A stretch of DNA of 50,129 bases from Coriobacteriia bacterium (GTDB lineage Bacteria > Actinomycetota > Coriobacteriia > Coriobacteriales > Eggerthellaceae). The stretch is taken from contig JAUNCQ010000011.1 in assembly GCA_030526515.1 (NCBI GenBank), positions 1-50,129 on the forward strand, given 5' to 3'. Under the pieces are notes generated by a model. That model ran no database searches, was not told where the DNA came from, and saw only the letters and a list, made by a program, of their open reading frames with translations. Position 1 is the first letter of the stretch. Each line of letters starts with the position of its first letter. The translations under genes and the position numbers were made by a program. Of this stretch, positions 7,565 through 34,599 are shown in pieces.

Positions 7565-8818
7565 ATGAAAACGCGTTCTAGAAAAAAATATTTCTGCGAT
7601 GGGCAAAATCGAGCATCCTCGACGACGATTGATTGGGCTAAAGCCATTTCGGTCATACTGGTCGCGCTTGGTTCGATTGCCTTTTTTGCACTGTGCACGG
7701 TAGCGGGAGTCGAGAATACTCAGACTGATAATGGTTCCGTGTACATAGTTTATATCCTGTTAACTTCTTGCCTTTGCGCTGTTTGCCTTATACATGAGCT
7801 TGTGATTCAGGCTGTTCGGCTTTCACGTGGTACCTGGATTCTCCTTCTCGTCTCTTTGGCCATATTGCTCGATTTACTGATAGAGCGCCAGTCGTTTGGG
7901 TCGTACGATTTTCTGTTGTTTTACATAGGCTTGGCGTTGCCAGGATTGGCTGCAGGGCTGCTGGCATCGAATCCCTTCGTTTTCAGGCTGGTAAAATCTC
8001 TTGTCGATCCTTTTGTGTTGCTTGTGACGGTCGCGGTAGTGTTGTTTGAGGTGAATATCTACGCGAGCGGGTGGTGGCGAAGCTTGCAGTTAGGTAGCTT
8101 TGGCTATCAGACTGCAGCATATTCAGCAGCTGTCGCTTTTGGATTAAATGCTTGGTCGATACTTCGTTGTGGCCACGAGGATCGCTTCCGTATTTTCAAT
8201 TTGACATGTTTTAGGACGATTCGTCTTGCGTTGCTTCCGATATTAGCGGGAGCAACCCTGTTGTCCGGCGGCCGCGGTGGCGCTGTTCTTGTATTGATGT
8301 ATTGCGTGATTGTCATAAGTTGGGTTGGAACAGGGAAAAAGCATGGGATTGCGTATAGCATACTGGTGGCGCTCTTGGTCGTTCTTGCTGGAGGCATAGC
8401 GTTTAATCTTGTCGATGTCTCTCAGTTCGCCGGTTTGGATCGCATTCTGAATAGAGGAGATAATCGGTCGAGCGTGATCGAAGGAGCTCTTTCTCTATTT
8501 TCTGAGTCGCCCGTATTCGGGTACGGATTCGGTGGGTATGGACAATTGCTATTTGAGCCTTATCCGCACAACATCGTATTGGACATACTGTTGTGCGGCG
8601 GCATAGTTGGACTGCTGTGTTCGCTTCTGTATTCGGGCTGGTTTGTTTTCAAGATAAAAAAGATTGGGGCATCTTCAGTCAGTTCCTATTCTCTTCTGTT
8701 GGTTATTGCTGTGTATGCGCTCACGTTTCTTATGTTCTCGGGTACTTTCTTGTCAAGCGCAGTTTTTTGGTTTTGCCTTTCCTTTGTCACTTCATATTGC
8801 ATTCGTGACGAAACGTAG
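7565..8818 (+). CDS. O-antigen ligase/polymerase family membrane protein (Wzy-like)
   Basis: A polytopic membrane protein of 417 residues with about ten or more hydrophobic segments. It has the O-antigen ligase family loop near residues 305-345: NRSSVIEGAL, ESPVFGYGFGGYG and YPHNIVLDILLCGG. The P-H-N motif followed by a membrane helix is characteristic. In a Wzx/Wzy pathway this protein would polymerise flipped repeat units on the outer face of the membrane; the flippase gene follows directly. A WaaL-type ligase function is less likely in a Gram-positive host. Confidence 0.82.
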   Translation: MKTRSRKKYFCDGQNRASSTTIDWAKAISVILVALGSIAFFALCTVAGVENTQTDNGSVYIVYILLTSCLCAVCLIHELVIQAVRLSRGTWILLLVSLAILLDLLIERQSFGSYDFLLFYIGLALPGLAAGLLASNPFVFRLVKSLVDPFVLLVTVAVVLFEVNIYASGWWRSLQLGSFGYQTAAYSAAVAFGLNAWSILRCGHEDRFRIFNLTCFRTIRLALLPILAGATLLSGGRGGAVLVLMYCVIVISWVGTGKKHGIAYSILVALLVVLAGGIAFNLVDVSQFAGLDRILNRGDNRSSVIEGALSLFSESPVFGYGFGGYGQLLFEPYPHNIVLDILLCGGIVGLLCSLLYSGWFVFKIKKIGASSVSSYSLLLVIAVYALTFLMFSGTFLSSAVFWFCLSFVTSYCIRDET

Positions 8819-13909: not shown

Positions 13910-14023
13910 ATAATTGGGTACTGACTTGCGCCTGCGGAGAGCGGCATCTGCGATCTGCATTTTGGCAGGGTTGTGAGGGCGCCTGGTTGTACCGGGCTTG
14001 TTGGACGAGAGGCTGGCTGTTGC

Positions 14024-15340
14024 GTGAGGACGTCTTACTACAACGTTGAGGTTCGAAACGACGACGGGTCGTGGACGGTGCACAACTGCGCTACCGGTGC
14101 GTTGGTGCAGGTGAGCGAAGGGGTTCACGAGGCGTTGGCGTGCGAGGGCGCGGGTTGCGATGGGCTTGGCGACCTCGGGGCGCTGGTGGAGGCTGGCGTG
14201 CTGGTTGAAGAACCCGAGGAGCAGGTGCGGGCGATAAGCGCTCGGTACGAGGCTGCTCGGCTGCAGCGAGACGAGCTCTGCCTGTGCATTGCGCCTACGC
14301 TGCGGTGCAACCTGGCCTGCGTGTACTGCTACGAGCCTCAGGGGCAGGCTGCGCCTGGGGATATGGGCGACGAGGTGATCGAGGGCATATTCGCCCTGAT
14401 AGAGCAGATCTACCGGCGGGATGGGTTCACGCGGCTGAGCATCCAGTGGTACGGCGGCGAGCCGACGCTGTGCCTGGGGACCATGCGGGCTATCAGCAGC
14501 TGGTGCCGGGAGTTTGCGGCGCGCAACGGCGTTTCCTTTGGGGCTGAGCTGATCAGCAACTGCAGCCTGGTGGACGACGAGGTCGCGCGGATCCTGCACG
14601 ACGAATGCTGCGTGGGGTTTGCCCTGCCCACCGTTGACGGCCCCGCTGAGCGCCATAACAGGCGCAGGCCGCTGAAGGGCGGCGGCGCGTCCTACGACGC
14701 CGTTTTGCGGGGCATACGGGCCCTGGTGGGCGCTGGGGTGCGGGTGACGGCATCGGTCAATATGGACGGGCGCATGTTCGACGAGTTCGAGGGCGTGCGT
14801 GATACCGTTGCCGAGCTGGGGGCCGGGTGCTCCTGCTGCGCGCTGTGTGATTACAGGGGCACGTTCGGAACCGCGGGATTTGAGGAGCCGGAGTTCCAGA
14901 TGATCAGTCATGAGGAGTACGCGCGGCGATCCCATGAGCTGTTCACGCGGAGCGGGTTCGATGCTGCGGCGGTGGCTGACCTGCTGCGGCCGATGGATCG
15001 GTTCTGCCGGGGGAGTGTGGAGAACTACTTCGTCATTGGGCCTACGGGCGACGTGTGCAAATGCGACGGCTGGATAGGGACCGGGAAGCACGTGCTGTTC
15101 AACCTGAGGGAACCCCAGAGCGACGATGCACTGCTGGACATGGTGCGCTACAACCCCACGGAGGATCCGGAGTGCCGCACCTGCCGGGTGCTGCCCCAGT
15201 GCATGGGGCATTGCCGCTGGAACCGGGAGGTGTTCAACGGGTTCTGCCACTACCTGAAGGTGAACGTGGAGGACTACGTGCGGGATTATCGGGGCTGCTT
15301 CGGTGCTGCGGAGGGCGACGTCTGCGTGCTGGTGGGCTGA
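14024..15340 (+). CDS. Radical SAM/SPASM peptide maturase
   Basis: A 438-residue enzyme with the radical SAM CxxxCxxC cluster (C95, C99, C102 in RCNLACVYCYEP), the GGEPTL motif after strand 2, and a Cys-rich C-terminal SPASM region (GDVCKCDGW, then CRTCRVLPQCMGHC) that should bind auxiliary Fe-S clusters. The N-terminus (YNVEVRNDDGSWTVHNCATGALV) resembles the precursor-recognition part of RiPP maturases. SPASM enzymes of this type usually install thioether or C-C crosslinks in ribosomal peptides. No precursor gene adjoins it. Candidates in the window are the Nif11-leader peptides at 28-34.6 kb and the peptide at 22974-23144. GTG 14024 has GAGAGG at 14007-14012; an in-frame GTG at 13973 would add 17 residues. 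Confidence 0.85.
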   Translation: MRTSYYNVEVRNDDGSWTVHNCATGALVQVSEGVHEALACEGAGCDGLGDLGALVEAGVLVEEPEEQVRAISARYEAARLQRDELCLCIAPTLRCNLACVYCYEPQGQAAPGDMGDEVIEGIFALIEQIYRRDGFTRLSIQWYGGEPTLCLGTMRAISSWCREFAARNGVSFGAELISNCSLVDDEVARILHDECCVGFALPTVDGPAERHNRRRPLKGGGASYDAVLRGIRALVGAGVRVTASVNMDGRMFDEFEGVRDTVAELGAGCSCCALCDYRGTFGTAGFEEPEFQMISHEEYARRSHELFTRSGFDAAAVADLLRPMDRFCRGSVENYFVIGPTGDVCKCDGWIGTGKHVLFNLREPQSDDALLDMVRYNPTEDPECRTCRVLPQCMGHCRWNREVFNGFCHYLKVNVEDYVRDYRGCFGAAEGDVCVLVG

Positions 15341-28149: not shown

Positions 28150-28521
28150 CTAGGACCAGCCGGCAGCCCTGGTGCAGCGTTCGCCCTTTAAGCAGTTGTT
28201 CGAGTATTCGCAGGTGTTCAGAACCATTTCGCATGCGTAGATCCAGAAGCAGAACTGCTCGCTCGAATTTCCGCCGCCGGCAACGTCGGCCAGAAAGGCA
28301 TCGTCGACCTCACGGTTCTTCGCGGTAGCCAGGGCCAGCTCCTCGGGGTCCAGGTCATAGCCGTACTCCTTGGCGAATTCCGCCAGGAACTCGAGCCTTG
28401 CGGCCTCGGGGTCCTCGGCCTGCTTCACCTTCTCTTCCGCCTGGGCGGACTGGACTTCGAGGGCCTTAGCCAGCTCCGGGTCCTTCTGCAGGTCTTCGAT
28501 GAATTGCTTTACGTCCTTCAT
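28150..28521 (-). CDS. Nif11-leader RiPP precursor 1
   Basis: A 123-residue precursor. Residues 1-80 are a Nif11-like leader (MKDVKQFIEDLQKDPELAKAL at the start, EYGYDLDPEELALATAKNREVDD later) ending in a double-glycine type cleavage site (LADVAGGG). The 40-residue core has five cysteines spaced C-x5-C-x6-C-x5-C-x5-C, with NTCEYSNNC in the centre and an aromatic FCFWIYAC start. The leader family guides modification enzymes and is cut off at the Gly motif by a peptidase/ABC exporter. AGGAG precedes the ATG. It is the second gene of a two-precursor operon, 85 bases after precursor 2. No maturase is adjacent. Confidence 0.85.
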   Translation of the reverse strand: MKDVKQFIEDLQKDPELAKALEVQSAQAEEKVKQAEDPEAARLEFLAEFAKEYGYDLDPEELALATAKNREVDDAFLADVAGGGNSSEQFCFWIYACEMVLNTCEYSNNCLKGERCTRAAGWS

Positions 28522-28606
28522 GGAGTGCTCCTAACTTGCTTTTGGAACCGCGCCTTGCTCTTTCCATTGCTTGAGCTTGGGCGAGTGGGTTCTATTCTGA
28601 AGGGCC

Positions 28607-28972
28607 CTAGTTCTTACCTGCATCCGTAGTGCAGGCCATGGCCATATAGCAGTTGTTCTTGAACATGCAGTTGTTTAGCGCGAAGTAGCAAGCATAGTTG
28701 ACCAGGCAGGTGCGCAATCCCGAACCACCCGATACGTCAGACAGCGCTTCGTCGTCGACCTCGCGGTTCTTCGCGGTAGCCAGGGCCAGCTCCTCGGGAT
28801 CGAGCTCGTAGCCGTGCTCCTCGGCGAAGGCCGTGAGGAGCTCGAGTTTCATGGCATTTGGGTCTTCGGACTGCTGGATCTTCTCCGTCATCTGCTCGCA
28901 CAGGGCATCGAGGGCCTTGGCCAGCTCAACGTCCTTCTGCAGGTCTTCGATGAATTGCTTTGCATCCTTCAT
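28607..28972 (-). CDS. Nif11-leader RiPP precursor 2
   Basis: A 121-residue precursor with a leader closely related to that of precursor 1 (MKDAKQFIEDLQKDVELAKAL; LALATAKNREVDDEALSDVSGG). The core after SGG has the same five-cysteine grid, C-x5-C-x6-C-x5-C-x5-C, with NNCMFKNNC in the middle. Other core residues differ widely from precursor 1. The ATG has AAAAGGAGC seven bases upstream. It is the promoter-proximal gene of locus A; the gap of 145 bases to the decayed kinase gene should hold the promoter. Confidence 0.85.
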   Translation of the reverse strand: MKDAKQFIEDLQKDVELAKALDALCEQMTEKIQQSEDPNAMKLELLTAFAEEHGYELDPEELALATAKNREVDDEALSDVSGGSGLRTCLVNYACYFALNNCMFKNNCYMAMACTTDAGKN

Positions 28973-29117
28973 ATGGTGCTCCTTTTAACGCCTTGCGCGG
29001 CCGTCCCGCGCGTGTGGCCTGTTGGTCCGAGCAGGCAACATCATGCTGTTCGGATGTTCTGCATTCTATACCTATGCGCACTTGGTTTGGAGGGAGCCGA
29101 CAAGTCTCCACATTTGA

Positions 29118-29786
29118 TTAGTTGAGGACGGCCTGCATGGTTTGGAGGAGCAGCTTGATGTTCAGGGGCTTGGCCACGTGGCCGTTCATGTTGGGCATCT
29201 GCATGTCCATGAGGACCAGGTCGTAGGTGCTCGGCTCGGATTGGGACACCTTGTCCACGGCTTCTGCGCCGTCGACGGCGCGGTCGATGGCCATGCCGTA
29301 GTCGGAGAGGAGCTCCTGGGCTATTTCGTAGTTGAGGTCGTTGTCTTCCGCGATGAGCACGCGCAGGCCCTGGAGGCGCTCCTGGTCGATGGGAGCGTGG
29401 GCGGGGGAGGGATCCTCGGCGGGGCTTTCGTCCACTTCAAGGGGAAGCACCACTTCGAAGGTGGAGCCCTGGTTGGGCTGGCTGGCGACTTCGATGGTGC
29501 CGTTCATGAGGGTGACGATCTGCTTGACGATTGCCAGGCCCAGGCCGGTGCCCTGGATGGTGTTGACGCGGGTGTCCACGGCGCGGCTGAACTGCTCGAA
29601 TATGGTTTCCATGAACTCCGGGGTCATGCCCATGCCGGTGTCCGCGATCTGGGCGTGCAAGTTCACGGTGGCACGGTCGCTCCGGGGAGGCTGGCGGGAG
29701 GCTGACGGGGCTTTCGCCCTGATTAAATGTATGTTGCGGGCGCCGCTCGTCGGACGGATGGGGCTGACTTCTGCCTGTTTGGGCAT
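29118..29786 (-). pseudogene. Decayed hybrid histidine kinase (ATPase end plus deleted receiver)
   Basis: What remains is the end of a HATPase_c domain (DTGMGMTPEF G1 box, GTGLGLAIVKQI G2 box) and a receiver domain (VLIAEDNDLNYEIA, then LVLMDMQMPN). The sensor, membrane, DHp and N-box parts are absent; the first ~38 codons of the frame look unrelated. Inside the receiver, MDMQMPN jumps straight to MNGHVAKPLNIKLL, so roughly 40 residues including the conserved Thr strand are missing, in frame. With no dimerisation His and a broken receiver it cannot signal in the normal way. It lies upstream of the Nif11 genes on the same strand and may once have regulated neighbouring genes. Confidence 0.75.
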
Positions 29787-29836
29787 ATAATGGACGAACT
29801 TTTTTACGAATTGAGCTTTGAGCGGGGAGTTTGCGC

Positions 29837-31171
29837 ATGAAGAGGATAGTGATTCTGGGCGGCGGCTTTGGCGGTTACTACACGGCCAAGGACCTTGAGA
29901 AGCTGCTGAAGCCTGGTGAGGCTGAGGTTACGCTGATCGACGTGAACGGCATGCTGTGCTATCAGCCGTTCCTGCCTGAGGTGGCTGGCGGCAATATCGA
30001 GGCACGTCACGTGATGGTGCCGCTGCGTAGGCACCTGCGCAAGACGCGGGTGATGACCGCCCATGTGGACGCGATCGACCACGCCAACAAGCTGGTGACT
30101 GTGACTGGCCGTCATGACAACTCCTGGACCGTGCCGTACGACGAGCTGGTCGTTGCCATGGGCGCCGTGACCAAGACGTTCCCGACTCCCGGCATTGCCG
30201 ACAACGCCGTGGGTCTGAAGGCCATGGAGGAAGCGGTGTTCATCCGCAACCGCATCGTGCAGAACATGGCCCGTGCTTGCGACCTGGACCCTGAGGACCC
30301 CGTGCGCAAGAAGATCCTGACGTTCTGCGTCATCGGCGGCGGCTTCTCCGGCATGGAGGGCATTGCCGAGATGAGCGACTTTGCGTACCGCCTGCTGAAG
30401 GACCACCCGGCGATTCGTCGCGAGGAGCTGCAGTTCCACCTGGTGGAGGCCACGGACCGCGTCATGCCCGAGCTGACCCGCGAGCGTTCCGCGTGGGTCG
30501 TGAAGATGCTGGAAGAGCGCGGCGTGAAGTTCCATATGAGCGTATTCGCGCAGAGCGCCATCGACAACGTGGTGAAGCTGAGCGACGGCACCTCCATCGA
30601 GTGCGACCTGATCGTGTGGACCGCTGGCGTGAAGGCCTGCCCGGCACTGGAGCACTCTGACCTGCCGCTGGACGAGCGCGGCCGCATGACCTGCAACACC
30701 AAGCTGCAGGTGGTTCGCGATGGCGAAGTCGTGCCTCACGCTTGGGGCCTGGGCGACGCCACCCGCGTCGAGGACCTGAGCGGCGGCGGCCTGCCGGATG
30801 GCTCCTGCGCTCCGACGGCCCAGCATGCCGTGCGTCAGGGCCACCAGATGGCGAAGAACCTGATTGCCGTGCTCCGTGGCGGCGAGCCGTCTGACTACGT
30901 GCACAAGAACGCCGGCTGCGTTGCCGGCCTTGGCCAGTGGCAGGGCGCCTTCTGCAGCGGTGCCAAGAAGCTGACCCTGGGCGGTCCGTTGGCCTGGCTG
31001 GCCCACAAGGGCTACCACGGCTTCGCGATGCCGTCCTGGGAGCGCAAGTTCCGCGTGTGGGGCGACTGGATCGGCGCGCTGATCCTGGGCCGCGACACCG
31101 CTTGCACCCGTCGCACCGAGCGCCCCCGCGGCTTCTTCGAGGACTTTGCGGTTCGCCCGAAGGAGGACTAG
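29837..31171 (+). CDS. ndh: Type II NADH dehydrogenase (NDH-2)
   Basis: A 444-residue single-subunit flavoenzyme that should oxidise NADH and reduce menaquinone at the membrane without pumping protons. The FAD motif is at residues 5-13 (VILGGGFGG), with the quinone-site-type CYQPFLPEVAGG after it. A second nucleotide motif, CVIGGGFSGMEGIAEM, binds NADH. The C-terminal HAWGLGDATRVE and APTAQHAVRQG are the usual FAD contacts. A C-terminal amphipathic part (LAWLAHKGYHGF) would anchor it. I prefer ATG 29837, seven bases after GCGGGGAG, over TTG 29831. It feeds the same quinone pool as the reductase at 26-28 kb. Confidence 0.88.
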   Translation: MKRIVILGGGFGGYYTAKDLEKLLKPGEAEVTLIDVNGMLCYQPFLPEVAGGNIEARHVMVPLRRHLRKTRVMTAHVDAIDHANKLVTVTGRHDNSWTVPYDELVVAMGAVTKTFPTPGIADNAVGLKAMEEAVFIRNRIVQNMARACDLDPEDPVRKKILTFCVIGGGFSGMEGIAEMSDFAYRLLKDHPAIRREELQFHLVEATDRVMPELTRERSAWVVKMLEERGVKFHMSVFAQSAIDNVVKLSDGTSIECDLIVWTAGVKACPALEHSDLPLDERGRMTCNTKLQVVRDGEVVPHAWGLGDATRVEDLSGGGLPDGSCAPTAQHAVRQGHQMAKNLIAVLRGGEPSDYVHKNAGCVAGLGQWQGAFCSGAKKLTLGGPLAWLAHKGYHGFAMPSWERKFRVWGDWIGALILGRDTACTRRTERPRGFFEDFAVRPKED

Positions 31172-31210
31172 TTTCTTTGTTGTTCGTCTTTGCGCTTAAG
31201 GAGCTATGGC

Positions 31211-31411
31211 ATGACGGGATGTTTCGATCGCAAACAACAGGCGGGCGTAGAGTCGCGTAGCCAATCTGTAGAGGCTACGCCATACGAGCGTCGCTTGGCT
31301 TGCGCCTTGAGGGAATCTCGCGCGGATTATGCGACGGGCAGCTATTACGAGAGTCGTGAGGAGATGCTCATGGCCGTTGCAGCGAAGCGTGCTGTAACGG
31401 CCATTTGGTAG
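31211..31411 (+). CDS. 66-residue small protein, unknown
   Basis: Starts MTGCFDRKQQAG. AAGGAG lies seven bases before the ATG and a strong terminator begins 11 bases after the stop, so it is probably a real gene, perhaps co-transcribed with the NDH-2 gene 39 bases upstream. The C-terminal 40 residues look helical and charged (YERRLACALRESRADYA, ESREEMLMAVAAKRAV). No domain is recognisable. A small DNA-binding or antitoxin-like protein is conceivable but unsupported. Confidence 0.55.
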   Translation: MTGCFDRKQQAGVESRSQSVEATPYERRLACALRESRADYATGSYYESREEMLMAVAAKRAVTAIW

Positions 31412-31421
31412 TGATCTTGTG

Positions 31422-31458
31422 AAGGCCTGGTTAGCATTGCTAACCAGGCCTTAATTTT
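31422..31458 (+). terminator. Rho-independent terminator
   Basis: A perfect 14-bp stem (AAGGCCTGGTTAGC / GCTAACCAGGCCTT) with an ATT loop is followed by AATTTT. It ends the NDH-2/small-protein transcript. Confidence 0.9.
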
Positions 31459-31867
31459 GCACTCTGAGGCAGATTATGGTTGGCATGCTTCGGGCTTGCT
31501 CAGCTAGGGCAGTTCTTCGAGTTTAGAGAGGGTGTCCGGACAGAAGTGCGTGTTTAGAGCGATTTGCGAGCTCGATCGCGTAGGTCAGGATGCCTTGGGC
31601 GGTCTCCTGGGCAGGATTGTCTGCGGGCTCTCTTTATAACACCAGGTCACAGGCTTGCTTGGTTGAGCGGGTGTTTCTTGTCTGCTTTGAGTTGGGCTAA
31701 GGAGCTCACTAAGCTCGCAGTTTTGTCAGAGGGTGCTCTCTAAACTCGAAAAACCGTCCTGAGGGCAAGGAGCGTCCTTGCGCTATCGGTCTGGAGCGGC
31801 TTGTGGCGGTAGAATGAGTCCCATGATTGAGCAATGCGAGCATCCGTCCGCGACTCTGGAGGCTGAT
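31459..31867. other. Intergenic region before the amidohydrolase
   Basis: About 410 bases with no supportable gene. On the minus strand around 31540-31635 a short frame without a start reads like coding DNA (EPADNPAQETAQGILTYAIE), ending in a stop; an adjacent frame reads LSKLEELP before another stop. This may be the tail of a decayed gene. A GCAAGGA-GCG-TCCTTGC hairpin lies near 31768-31784. Confidence 0.4.
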
Positions 31868-33442
31868 ATGAAGGTTTACGAGGGTTCTATCCTGACCGTT
31901 GATGCACAGGATTCCGTTGCGCGGTACCTGGTCGAGGACGGCGGGCGGATTGTGTTCGTGGGCGACGAGCTTCCGGATCAGTACGCCAGCACGGACAGGG
32001 TCGTGCTGGGCGAGCGGGCGCTGTGCCCGTCCTTCGTGGACAGCCATGAGCACTTCGCGTCCTTCGCCGTGTTCAACGCAGGCCTGAACGTCATGGACGC
32101 CCGATCCAATGCCCAGATTGCCCAGATGGTGAGTGACTTTGCCCAGAAGTGCTCCGCCAAGGTGCTGGTGGCATTCGGCGCGTCGCCCCACACGGTGGCG
32201 GAGGGGCGGCTGCTTACCCGCGCCGAGCTGGACGCAGTGTGCCCGAACAAGCCGGTGTTCATGGTGAAGTACGACGGCCATGCCTGCATTGTCAACTCGG
32301 CGCTGCTGAAGCTGGTCGAGGGCAAGGTGAAGGGCCTGCGGGGATATCACCCCGAGTCGGGCGAAATGAACCAGGAGGCGTTCTTCGCCGTAAGCGACTA
32401 CATCACCGGGTCGCTGTCCATTCCCGAGCTGATCCGCAACATGCAGGGCGCCATGGATTACCTGGCCGAGCGCGGAATTGGCATGGTGCACACCGTCAGC
32501 GGCGTGGGCTTCACCGGCGACCTGGATATTTCCCTGGAGAAATGGATGGGTCGTAGCGCGGAGTCTGGATTCCAGCTGCGCGTGTATCCGCAGTCCATGG
32601 ACGTGAAGGTGGCCACCAAGCGCGGGCTGCCCCGTATTGGCGGATGCTTCCAGTGCGCGTTGGACGGCGCCTTCGGCAGCTGCGATGCGGCGGTGCACGA
32701 GCCCTACGTGGGCGCTGGCGCGGTGGGGGAGACCGGCGTGCTGTTCTATGCCGACGAGCAGGTGATTTCCTTCTGCAAGGAGGCTAATCGCGCCGGGCTG
32801 CAGATCCAGATGCATGCCATCGGCGATGCCGCCTTCGATCAGGCCACCCGTGCGCTTAAGGCTGCGCTGGACGATTGCCCGCGGGATGACCATCGCCACG
32901 GCATCATTCATGCCTGCCTGCCCACGGAAGACGGCATTGCCATCTGCGCGGAGTACGGGATTCACCTTCCGGTTCAGAGCGCGTTCATAGGCTGGGCGCA
33001 GGAGCCGGATGCCTACTTGGAGGAATTGCTGGGCCCCGAGCGCGCTGCCGCTCTGAACCCACTGCGCAGGTTCGCGGATGCGGGCTTGGTCATGACCGCA
33101 GGCTCCGATGCTCCCTGCACGGATCCGAATCCCCTGGTCTGGATGGAGAAGGCCTGTAACCACAGCACTGCCGGCCAGAGCCTGACGGTGCAGGAAGCCC
33201 TGCGCATGTGCACGTACAACGGCGCTTGGGCCACCTTCGACGAAGGCGAGCGCGGTTCCCTGGAGGTGGGCAAGGTGGCTGACATGGTGGTGCTCAGCAG
33301 CAATCCCTATGCGGTTCCGGTCGACCAGCTCGGCCAGCTCAAGGTGGAGCAGCTGCTGCTGGGCGGCAAGCCCTACGAGCATCAGCAGCAGGGGTTCGTT
33401 TCGGCAGTAGTGCGCGGCATGATGGGAAAGAAAAAGGTCTAG
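31868..33442 (+). CDS. YtcJ-like metal-dependent amidohydrolase
   Basis: A 524-residue cytoplasmic Amidohydro_3 family enzyme. The entry strand LCPSFVDSHEHF carries a D-S-H-E-H metal motif. QMHAIGDAAFDQAT supplies the middle His, GIIHACLPT another, and TAGSDAPCTDPNPLVWM the catalytic Asp near the end, before the SLEVGKVADMVVLS composite beta domain. The fold hydrolyses amide or ester bonds in small molecules; YtcJ substrates are mostly unknown. I chose ATG 31868 because TGGAGG lies five bases upstream and the protein then begins directly with the beta-sandwich strand MKVYEGSILTV; longer starts at 31814 and 31778 exist. Confidence 0.87.
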   Translation: MKVYEGSILTVDAQDSVARYLVEDGGRIVFVGDELPDQYASTDRVVLGERALCPSFVDSHEHFASFAVFNAGLNVMDARSNAQIAQMVSDFAQKCSAKVLVAFGASPHTVAEGRLLTRAELDAVCPNKPVFMVKYDGHACIVNSALLKLVEGKVKGLRGYHPESGEMNQEAFFAVSDYITGSLSIPELIRNMQGAMDYLAERGIGMVHTVSGVGFTGDLDISLEKWMGRSAESGFQLRVYPQSMDVKVATKRGLPRIGGCFQCALDGAFGSCDAAVHEPYVGAGAVGETGVLFYADEQVISFCKEANRAGLQIQMHAIGDAAFDQATRALKAALDDCPRDDHRHGIIHACLPTEDGIAICAEYGIHLPVQSAFIGWAQEPDAYLEELLGPERAAALNPLRRFADAGLVMTAGSDAPCTDPNPLVWMEKACNHSTAGQSLTVQEALRMCTYNGAWATFDEGERGSLEVGKVADMVVLSSNPYAVPVDQLGQLKVEQLLLGGKPYEHQQQGFVSAVVRGMMGKKKV

Positions 33443-33468
33443 GCTCGCGTTTGCTTGCCTAGACCTTT
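33433..33468. terminator. Bidirectional terminator overlapping a stop codon
   Basis: A 12-bp perfect stem (AAAGGTCTAGGC / GCCTAGACCTTT) contains the amidohydrolase stop codon in its left arm. The minus-strand reading continues as TTTTT and closes Nif11 locus B; the plus reading ends the amidohydrolase transcript. Confidence 0.82.
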
Positions 33469-33491
33469 CGACGGGCTATTTTCGTGCCGGG

Positions 33492-33875
33492 CTACTGGAC
33501 CTGGTGCGCGCAACCCTCTTTGTGCACCTTTGCCTGGCACTCATGGGTGCGTTCGCATTCGTTGCTGTACACGCAGGTGTTCCAGACGAAATTGCACCAG
33601 TAGTCCAGGTTGCAGGGTCCCTTGGTTCCACCCGCAATTGCGGCCAGATCCTCATCGGTGACCTCGCGATTTGTGGCGGTCTGGAGGGCGAGCTCCTCAG
33701 CCTCGAACTGGTAGCCATGCTCGGCTGCGAAGGCGGTTACGGCCTCAATGCTTGCAACCTCGGGGTCTTTGGCCTTGGAGACGGCCTCCTCGATGGTCGG
33801 ACCCAGCGCCTCGAAGGCCTGGGCCAGGTCCTTGTCTTCCTGAAGGTCAGCTAGGAACTGCTTTGCGTCCTTCAT
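33492..33875 (-). CDS. Nif11-leader RiPP precursor 3
   Basis: A 127-residue precursor. The leader (MKDAKQFLADLQEDKDLAQAF; EHGYQFEAEELALQTATNREV) ends at LAAIAGG. The core has the same five-cysteine grid as precursors 1 and 2 (C-x5-C-x6-C-x5-C-x5-C), with NTCVYSNEC at its centre, then a sixth cysteine eight residues on (KVHKEGC). It is rich in aromatic and acidic residues. It is the last gene of a three-precursor operon, with AGAAAGGAACC before the ATG and the shared terminator downstream. It is closer in core type to locus A than to its own neighbours. Confidence 0.85.
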   Translation of the reverse strand: MKDAKQFLADLQEDKDLAQAFEALGPTIEEAVSKAKDPEVASIEAVTAFAAEHGYQFEAEELALQTATNREVTDEDLAAIAGGTKGPCNLDYWCNFVWNTCVYSNECERTHECQAKVHKEGCAHQVQ

Positions 33876-33919: not shown

Positions 33920-34237
33920 TTATTCGGGCGGCCACTTCATGTTCTCCGCGGGGCACTTGTAGCCGAAGACGCACTGGGAGTCACCCAGGCACTTCGGGGC
34001 ACCGCCGGCTGCCATTTCCAGCTGCTCGTCGGACACCTCGCGGTTGGTGGCGTCCTGGAAGGAAAGGTCCTCGGCCTCGAACTGGTAGCCGTGCTCGCGG
34101 GCGAAAGCGGTGATGGCCTCGACGCGTGCAGCGGCTGCGTCCTCCTCGGAGGAGATGTCGGCGATTGCTGCTCCCAGGGCCTGATCCAGCTCCTGGTCAA
34201 CCTTCAGATCCTCCAGGAATTGCTTTGCATCCTTCAT
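33920..34237 (-). CDS. Nif11-leader RiPP precursor 4
   Basis: A 105-residue precursor with leader MKDAKQFLEDLKVDQELDQAL..., TNREVSDEQLEMAAGG, and a short core with three cysteines spaced C-x5-C-x5-C (KCLGDSQCVFGYKCPAE), ending KWPPE. The leader is identical, base for base, to that of precursor 5, while the core differs at eight residues. The 44-base 5' spacer (RBS AGAAAGGAACC) resembles that of precursor 3, which suggests repeated tandem duplication. Confidence 0.85.
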   Translation of the reverse strand: MKDAKQFLEDLKVDQELDQALGAAIADISSEEDAAAARVEAITAFAREHGYQFEAEDLSFQDATNREVSDEQLEMAAGGAPKCLGDSQCVFGYKCPAENMKWPPE

Positions 34238-34281: not shown

Positions 34282-34599
34282 TTATTCGGGCGACCACTGC
34301 ATGCTCTCCGCGGGGCACTTGTAGCCGACGAAGCAGCGGGCGCTGCCCAGGCACTTCGGGGCACCGCCGGCTGCCATTTCCAGCTGCTCGTCGGACACCT
34401 CGCGGTTGGTGGCGTCCTGGAAGGAAAGGTCCTCGGCCTCGAACTGGTAGCCGTGCTCGCGGGCGAAAGCGGTGATGGCCTCGACGCGTGCAGCGGCTGC
34501 GTCCTCCTCGGAGGAGATGTCGGCGATTGCTGCTCCCAGGGCCTGATCCAGCTCCTGGTCAACCTTCAGATCCTCCAGGAATTGCTTTGCATCCTTCAT
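34282..34599 (-). CDS. Nif11-leader RiPP precursor 5
   Basis: A 105-residue precursor, first gene of locus B. The leader is the same as in precursor 4. The core is KCLGSARCFVGYKCPAE followed by SMQWSPE, so the three cysteines, the GYKCPAE block and the Trp-x-Pro-Glu end are kept while surrounding residues change. GAGAGGAGT lies seven bases before the ATG, a different and stronger 5' region than precursors 3 and 4. The promoter should lie in the divergent gap before the nitrilase gene. Confidence 0.85.
   Translation of the reverse strand: MKDAKQFLEDLKVDQELDQALGAAIADISSEEDAAAARVEAITAFAREHGYQFEAEDLSFQDATNREVSDEQLEMAAGGAPKCLGSARCFVGYKCPAESMQWSPE

Follow-up and report, generated by a model that had tools for sequence, protein, structure and literature searches.

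Three short genes in a contig from a Coriobacteriia bacterium of the Eggerthellaceae encode peptides with a Nif11-type leader and one exact arrangement of five cysteines. The window, meaning here the whole stretch of 50,129 nucleotides that was analysed, has no maturase or exporter gene adjoining these three precursors (P1 to P3). The locus raises the question of which enzymes act on the peptides and what becomes of their cysteines. The answer we consider probable is that P1 to P3 are three of thirteen precursors of one dispersed RiPP system, in which a radical SAM/SPASM maturase encoded on another contig (C36) would work in trans, form thioethers between a cysteine and the fourth residue after it (Cys+4), and leave secretion to an NHLM exporter.

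Precursors in the window

Five Nif11-leader genes lie on the minus strand of the window:

28150-28521, minus strand: P1, Nif11-leader precursor, 123 aa (leader, residues 1-83; core, 28153-28272; grid, 28174-28251, positioned by DNA pattern search); PF07862, 33.3 bits; TIGR03798, 33.3 bits (cut-off 32.3); ribosome-binding site AGGAG
28607-28972, minus strand: P2, Nif11-leader precursor, 121 aa (core, 28610-28723; grid, 28631-28708); PF07862, 26.4 bits; TIGR03798, 33.5 bits; ribosome-binding site AAGGAG
33492-33875, minus strand: P3, Nif11-leader precursor, 127 aa (core, 33495-33626; grid, 33537-33614); PF07862, 32.8 bits; TIGR03798, 42 bits; ribosome-binding site AAGGA
33920-34237, minus strand: P4, same leader family as P1 to P3, 105 aa (core, 33923-34000); PF07862, 29.6 bits; profile A1 match, E 5.1e-30; sequence
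34282-34599, minus strand: P5, recent duplicate of P4; PF07862, profile A1 and sequence comparison

The open reading frames of P1, P2 and P3 have good ribosome-binding sites, and their leaders end in Gly-Gly, followed by a core with the spacing C-x5-C-x6-C-x5-C-x5-C (the grid). The preliminary description of P1 to P3 as Nif11-leader precursors with one exact five-cysteine grid was verified in its reading frames, ribosome-binding sites, leader models and grid. Its family assignment, drawn from the leader, is borne out as well: P1 to P5 pass the PF07862 cut-off and P1 to P3 that of TIGR03798. Two of these three have an additional cysteine, which is located in the leader of P2 and, as a sixth core cysteine, after the grid and close to the C-terminus of P3. 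P4 and P5, which adjoin P3, have the Nif11 leader in common with it and a shorter core, C-x5-C-x5-C, which in P4 includes C-x3-Y-x-C and holds no five-cysteine grid. Upstream of P2 (29118-29786, minus strand) is a hybrid histidine kinase fragment that comprises HATPase_c and an incomplete response regulator and is probably a truncated gene.

Thirteen grid precursors in one genome

The window genome (2.4 Mb in 93 contigs, 96% complete) has Nif11 precursors on five contigs. Beyond P1 to P3, ten more grid precursors are spread over the four other contigs, giving a set of thirteen (window, 3; C36, 5; C61, 3; C55, 1; C75, 1). The DNA pattern of the grid has 17 matches in the genome, 13 of them in Nif11 precursors, versus 2 matches for a reversed control pattern; the occurrence of the grid therefore exceeds chance. 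Common to all thirteen aligned precursors are the leader and the five cysteines. The residue at Cys1+4 is aromatic in every grid core (Tyr in 11 of 13), Asn directly precedes the third cysteine in 11 of 13, Asn or Asp lies four residues past the third cysteine in 12 of 13, and Glu precedes the fourth cysteine in 11 of 13. The third loop, from the fourth to the fifth cysteine, is without a conserved acceptor. The shared centre noted earlier, N-x-C-x-[YF]-x-N-x-C, is accurate for P1 to P3 and does not extend to the genome-wide set, most of whose members have another residue at [YF]. A Y-x-N cyclophane motif, considered from Y/F-x-N in P1 to P3, was dropped because the aromatic residue there is absent from most of the thirteen cores.

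The grid is confined to this genome in every set searched. Outside the window genome, profile A1 gave nothing but leader-type matches when run on 138 genomes of the family and 398 of the class, and the 13 matches of core profile A3 among 398 class genomes are all within it. The same core profile had no match in 44 genomes with relatives of the maturase, in a search without a positive control.

Divergence of the cores

Over 78 pairs, the leaders are 59% identical versus 30% for the cores, cysteines excluded; with an invariant Gly-Gly boundary and a core this variable, the set has the make-up of Nif11-leader precursors. Non-synonymous difference (pN) is higher in the core than in the leader in 77 of the 78 pairs. 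Two close pairs illustrate the pattern. C36a and C36b have leaders that are 90% identical and non-Cys core residues that are 20% identical, with every cysteine retained. P4 and P5 have identical leader DNA, and all 11 nucleotide differences fall inside the core, where nine codons are changed (eight of them non-synonymous) and the cysteines and Tyr are retained. Such a pattern would be expected of a library built on a fixed scaffold; part of it could alternatively reflect gene conversion that homogenises leaders. For P4/P5 and C36a/b, the core changes are of mixed base types and give no support to a DGR-like origin.

Maturase and exporter locus

Contig C36 alone encodes a 477-aa radical SAM/SPASM protein amid its five precursors, together with NHLM ABC2 (743.6 bits vs a cut-off of 709.4), and the contig end cuts ABC1. 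C61 ends in the missing N-terminal part of ABC1, which carries the C39 peptidase domain, and shares an exact overlap of 55 bp with C36. The joined stretch of 23 kb contains eight grid precursors, the radical SAM/SPASM maturase and both NHLM exporter subunits. The export pair defined by TIGR03796 and TIGR03797 (C39 peptidase-ABC subunit and ABC2) is therefore present, with ABC1 split over the contigs and scored as two pieces (profile positions 1-239 and 224-709). A small membrane protein of unconfirmed family sits where the HlyD-like partner usually stands. Because the joined locus holds precursors, maturase and both NHLM subunits, one set of enzymes most likely serves the window precursors in trans, for modification as well as export. 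Between two precursors of the C36 locus (L022, about 7705-7780, minus strand) is a short remnant resembling the N-terminus of the maturase (YILNSDYFICGWRDLPYALM), which suggests a duplicated, decayed enzyme-precursor unit.

The C36 maturase is itself located between precursors (L022). It has Radical_SAM and SPASM domains and, as SPASM enzymes should, the canonical set of ten cluster cysteines. Its AlphaFold model (mean pLDDT 91.9) best matches the solved folds of SkfB, anSME, SuiB, ChlB and CteB; SkfB is closest (Z 26.9), and CteB and anSME score nearly as high. The N-terminal 75 residues are covered by the alignments to SkfB and SuiB and look like a candidate RRE, or leader-binding domain. 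Among the NCBIfam matches listed, the enzyme falls below all equivalog cut-offs. It scores 55.3 bits (cut-off 340) with the PapB model, the test for a ranthipeptide enzyme, and 91.6 bits (cut-off 725) with TIGR04103 (Nif11-class radical SAM maturase 3), and the SCIFF maturase model is absent from its best 25 matches. Its chemistry is thus not readable from homology, since there is no equivalog and the fold matches include enzymes that make different bonds. A modelled fold nearest to SkfB does not fix the bond chemistry.

Relatives of the maturase

A scan of 84,980 genomes recovered 286 stretches with relatives of the C36 maturase, and none was found in viral contigs. The best 80 of the 286 are about 39-47% identical to it, and the majority belong to Bacillota and Coriobacteriia from ruminants and other gut sources. 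The loci of these 80 carry Nif11-type precursors, 26 of them have NHLM transporter genes, and the grid occurs at none. The link between enzyme and grid accordingly rests on one genome, the 80 relative loci and the 44 whole genomes being without it. In NCBIfam scans, representative precursors from the relatives gave a Nif11 leader or weak matches only.

The precursors of the relatives contain a related unit, C-x2-[ND]-[DY]-x-C, in cores that recur as three kinds. In their C-x5-C pairs, Asn prevails at position 3 and Asp (0.70) or Tyr (0.16) at position 4, with Ala or Gly at position 5; all counts from these pairs are approximate, as the precursors were picked by a hand-set filter. Asp or Asn occupies loop position four after Cys in 71 of 100 C-x5-C pairs, versus 32.5 expected and a maximum of 48 in 5000 shuffles, an excess that carries no strict probability, since the sequences are related. 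Unit 1 in the window cores reads C-x2-[ND]-Y-[AG]-C and is composed like the units of the relatives; we therefore read the grid as two C-x5-C units plus a fifth cysteine. Homologues that keep the leader and lose the spacing, taken in the preliminary description as evidence against a shared grid, do exist in a weak sense: P4, P5 and all sampled relatives have Nif11-type leaders and other spacings. The constrained element thus seems to be the C-x5-C unit, not the whole grid.

Alternative enzymes and bonds

Other modifying systems were looked for in the genome. For a prochlorosin-type LanM, the best LANC_like match in the window genome (96% complete) reaches 10.1 bits (cut-off 23.2), and for a TOMM/azole system there is one YcaO match, on another contig, of 21.5 bits (cut-off 25.7). 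The genome has 29 radical SAM matches, eleven of which were scanned by NCBIfam, and three of those eleven are of the SPASM peptide-maturase type: the C36 enzyme and the following two:

13973-15340 of the window (start may be 14027), plus strand: orphan radical SAM/SPASM enzyme; best NCBIfam match TIGR04463, 160.9 bits (cut-off 525)
128-1297 of L024, contig C55, plus strand: ACGX-system radical SAM/SPASM protein; TIGR04340, 611 bits (cut-off 400)

The ACGX-system enzyme lies about 5 kb from the lone grid precursor on C55.

The window orphan is about 13 kb from P1, and among the NCBIfam models that it matches more weakly are those for the nif11 (93.1 bits), PapB and SCIFF maturases, so that it could be supposed to modify P1 to P3. 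It is present in 26 of the 138 family genomes, including this one, and the other carriers are without grid precursors, which makes it an unlikely partner. The C36 enzyme, moreover, sits inside a precursor array, and no precursor adjoining the orphan was found where one was looked for. Modification of P1 to P3 by the orphan is accordingly a very improbable reading. Slightly better placed, and still improbable, is a fate without any enzymatic cross-link, in which the cysteines form disulfides or bind metal after secretion. Five or six cysteines at fixed spacing fit either outcome; yet the precursor array contains a radical SAM/SPASM enzyme, and an odd number of cysteines fits pure disulfide pairing poorly.

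A closer alternative retains the system as proposed and differs in the bond, with sulphur joined to alpha carbons (sactionines) in a hairpin and with acceptors that are not at Cys+4. The cores are indeed Cys-rich with variable spacers, and the closest solved fold is that of SkfB, which we take to be a sactipeptide maturase. However, CteB and anSME score nearly equal to SkfB, and the C-x5-C units of the relatives are conserved at Cys+4, as in the CX3D ranthipeptides; we regard sactionines as unlikely. The earlier claim that the grid reflects a fixed modification pattern imposed by one enzyme system is well supported by the thirteen precursors, the embedded maturase, the NHLM set, the frozen cysteines and the lack of LanC or YcaO above cut-off. 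Among the modifications it allowed (thioethers, disulfides or metal binding), thioethers are the likely type.

Proposed maturation and comparison with known systems

In the preferred reading, in which the C36 enzyme forms Cys+4 thioethers in trans, the RRE-like N-terminal domain of the maturase would bind the Nif11 leader, and the enzyme would act on the C-x5-C units of the core. Thioethers would run from Cys to the residue four positions on, which is Tyr in unit 1 and Asn or Asp in unit 2. Cleavage after Gly-Gly and secretion of the core would then fall to the NHLM C39 peptidase/ABC exporter. The precursors of the window, like the other dispersed ones, would be served in trans by the C36/C61 enzymes, as prochlorosin precursors are by ProcM. 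With the cysteines and acceptor positions fixed and the other core residues changing fast, the set may serve as a library on one scaffold. As to biological role, our guess is varied secreted peptides for competition or signalling.

The nearest parallel in organization is found in the prochlorosins and synechococsins (ProcM, SyncM), which likewise have a Nif11-type leader ending in Gly-Gly and many dispersed precursors with hypervariable cores (PMC10783134). ProcM handles 29 Nif11-type substrates, and the single promiscuous enzyme working in trans there is what is proposed here (PMC10783134). The chemistry differs, being of the LanM lanthionine type there and assigned here to a radical SAM/SPASM enzyme, with no LanC above cut-off; the cysteine spacing, in addition, is fixed here. 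The ranthipeptides (freyrasin/PapB, SCIFF/CteB) are alike in their radical SAM/SPASM enzyme, Cys-rich cores and recurrent Cys-x3-acceptor spacing (PMC9413430). PapB forms Cys-Asp thioethers to the beta carbon in six CX3D motifs and is promiscuous, tolerating other spacings (PMC9413430), and in another ranthipeptide Cys is linked to Asn at the beta carbon (PMC8326336). In contrast to these, the present system has a Nif11 leader, a presumed acceptor position held by either Tyr or Asn/Asp, and a maturase far below the PapB cut-off. The NHLP/Nif11 systems with TIGR03796/TIGR03797 exporters (Haft et al. 2010) also have Nif11-type precursors near NHLM exporters, as here (PMC2887384), whereas the enzymes described for them are of the YcaO or lanthionine kinds and the local one here is radical SAM/SPASM.

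The statement that no described product class has the grid spacing is consistent with open-licence papers and curated NCBIfam models, in which none was found. The parts of the system are of known kinds; as far as our searches go, the combination, the five-cysteine scaffold with thirteen cores and the maturase family without an equivalog are new. This family, with 286 relatives, falls outside the NCBIfam equivalogs tested and is directly expressible. A wider reading, which we offer tentatively as possible and short of probable, is that of a widespread radical-SAM RiPP class in gut and ruminant Bacillota and Coriobacteriia, built on C-x2-[ND]-[DY]-x-C units with promiscuous Cys-to-(i+4) thioethers on Asp, Asn or Tyr, and expanded in this genome as a five-cysteine library. 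If that is true, the system is a radical-SAM counterpart of the prochlorosins, and the one-enzyme, many-precursor strategy of cyanobacterial lanthipeptides arose also with radical SAM chemistry, in gut-type anaerobes. The naturally varied substrate set would then separate the positions that the enzyme needs (cysteines and Cys+4) from those that are free.

Other precursor arrays at related loci

Tandem arrays of Nif11-type precursors, with at least eight members, are located behind one maturase relative in ruminant Clostridia assemblies (L118, 4084-10067, plus strand; L121, 9495-14597, plus strand). Another paralogous family of Nif11-like precursors occupies the locus centre in L150, L151, L161, L163 and others, in a genus (g72) of the same order; its cores have the pattern C-x-C-[VI]-x2-G-x2-K-G-C-x-C and occur in up to nine copies per genome.
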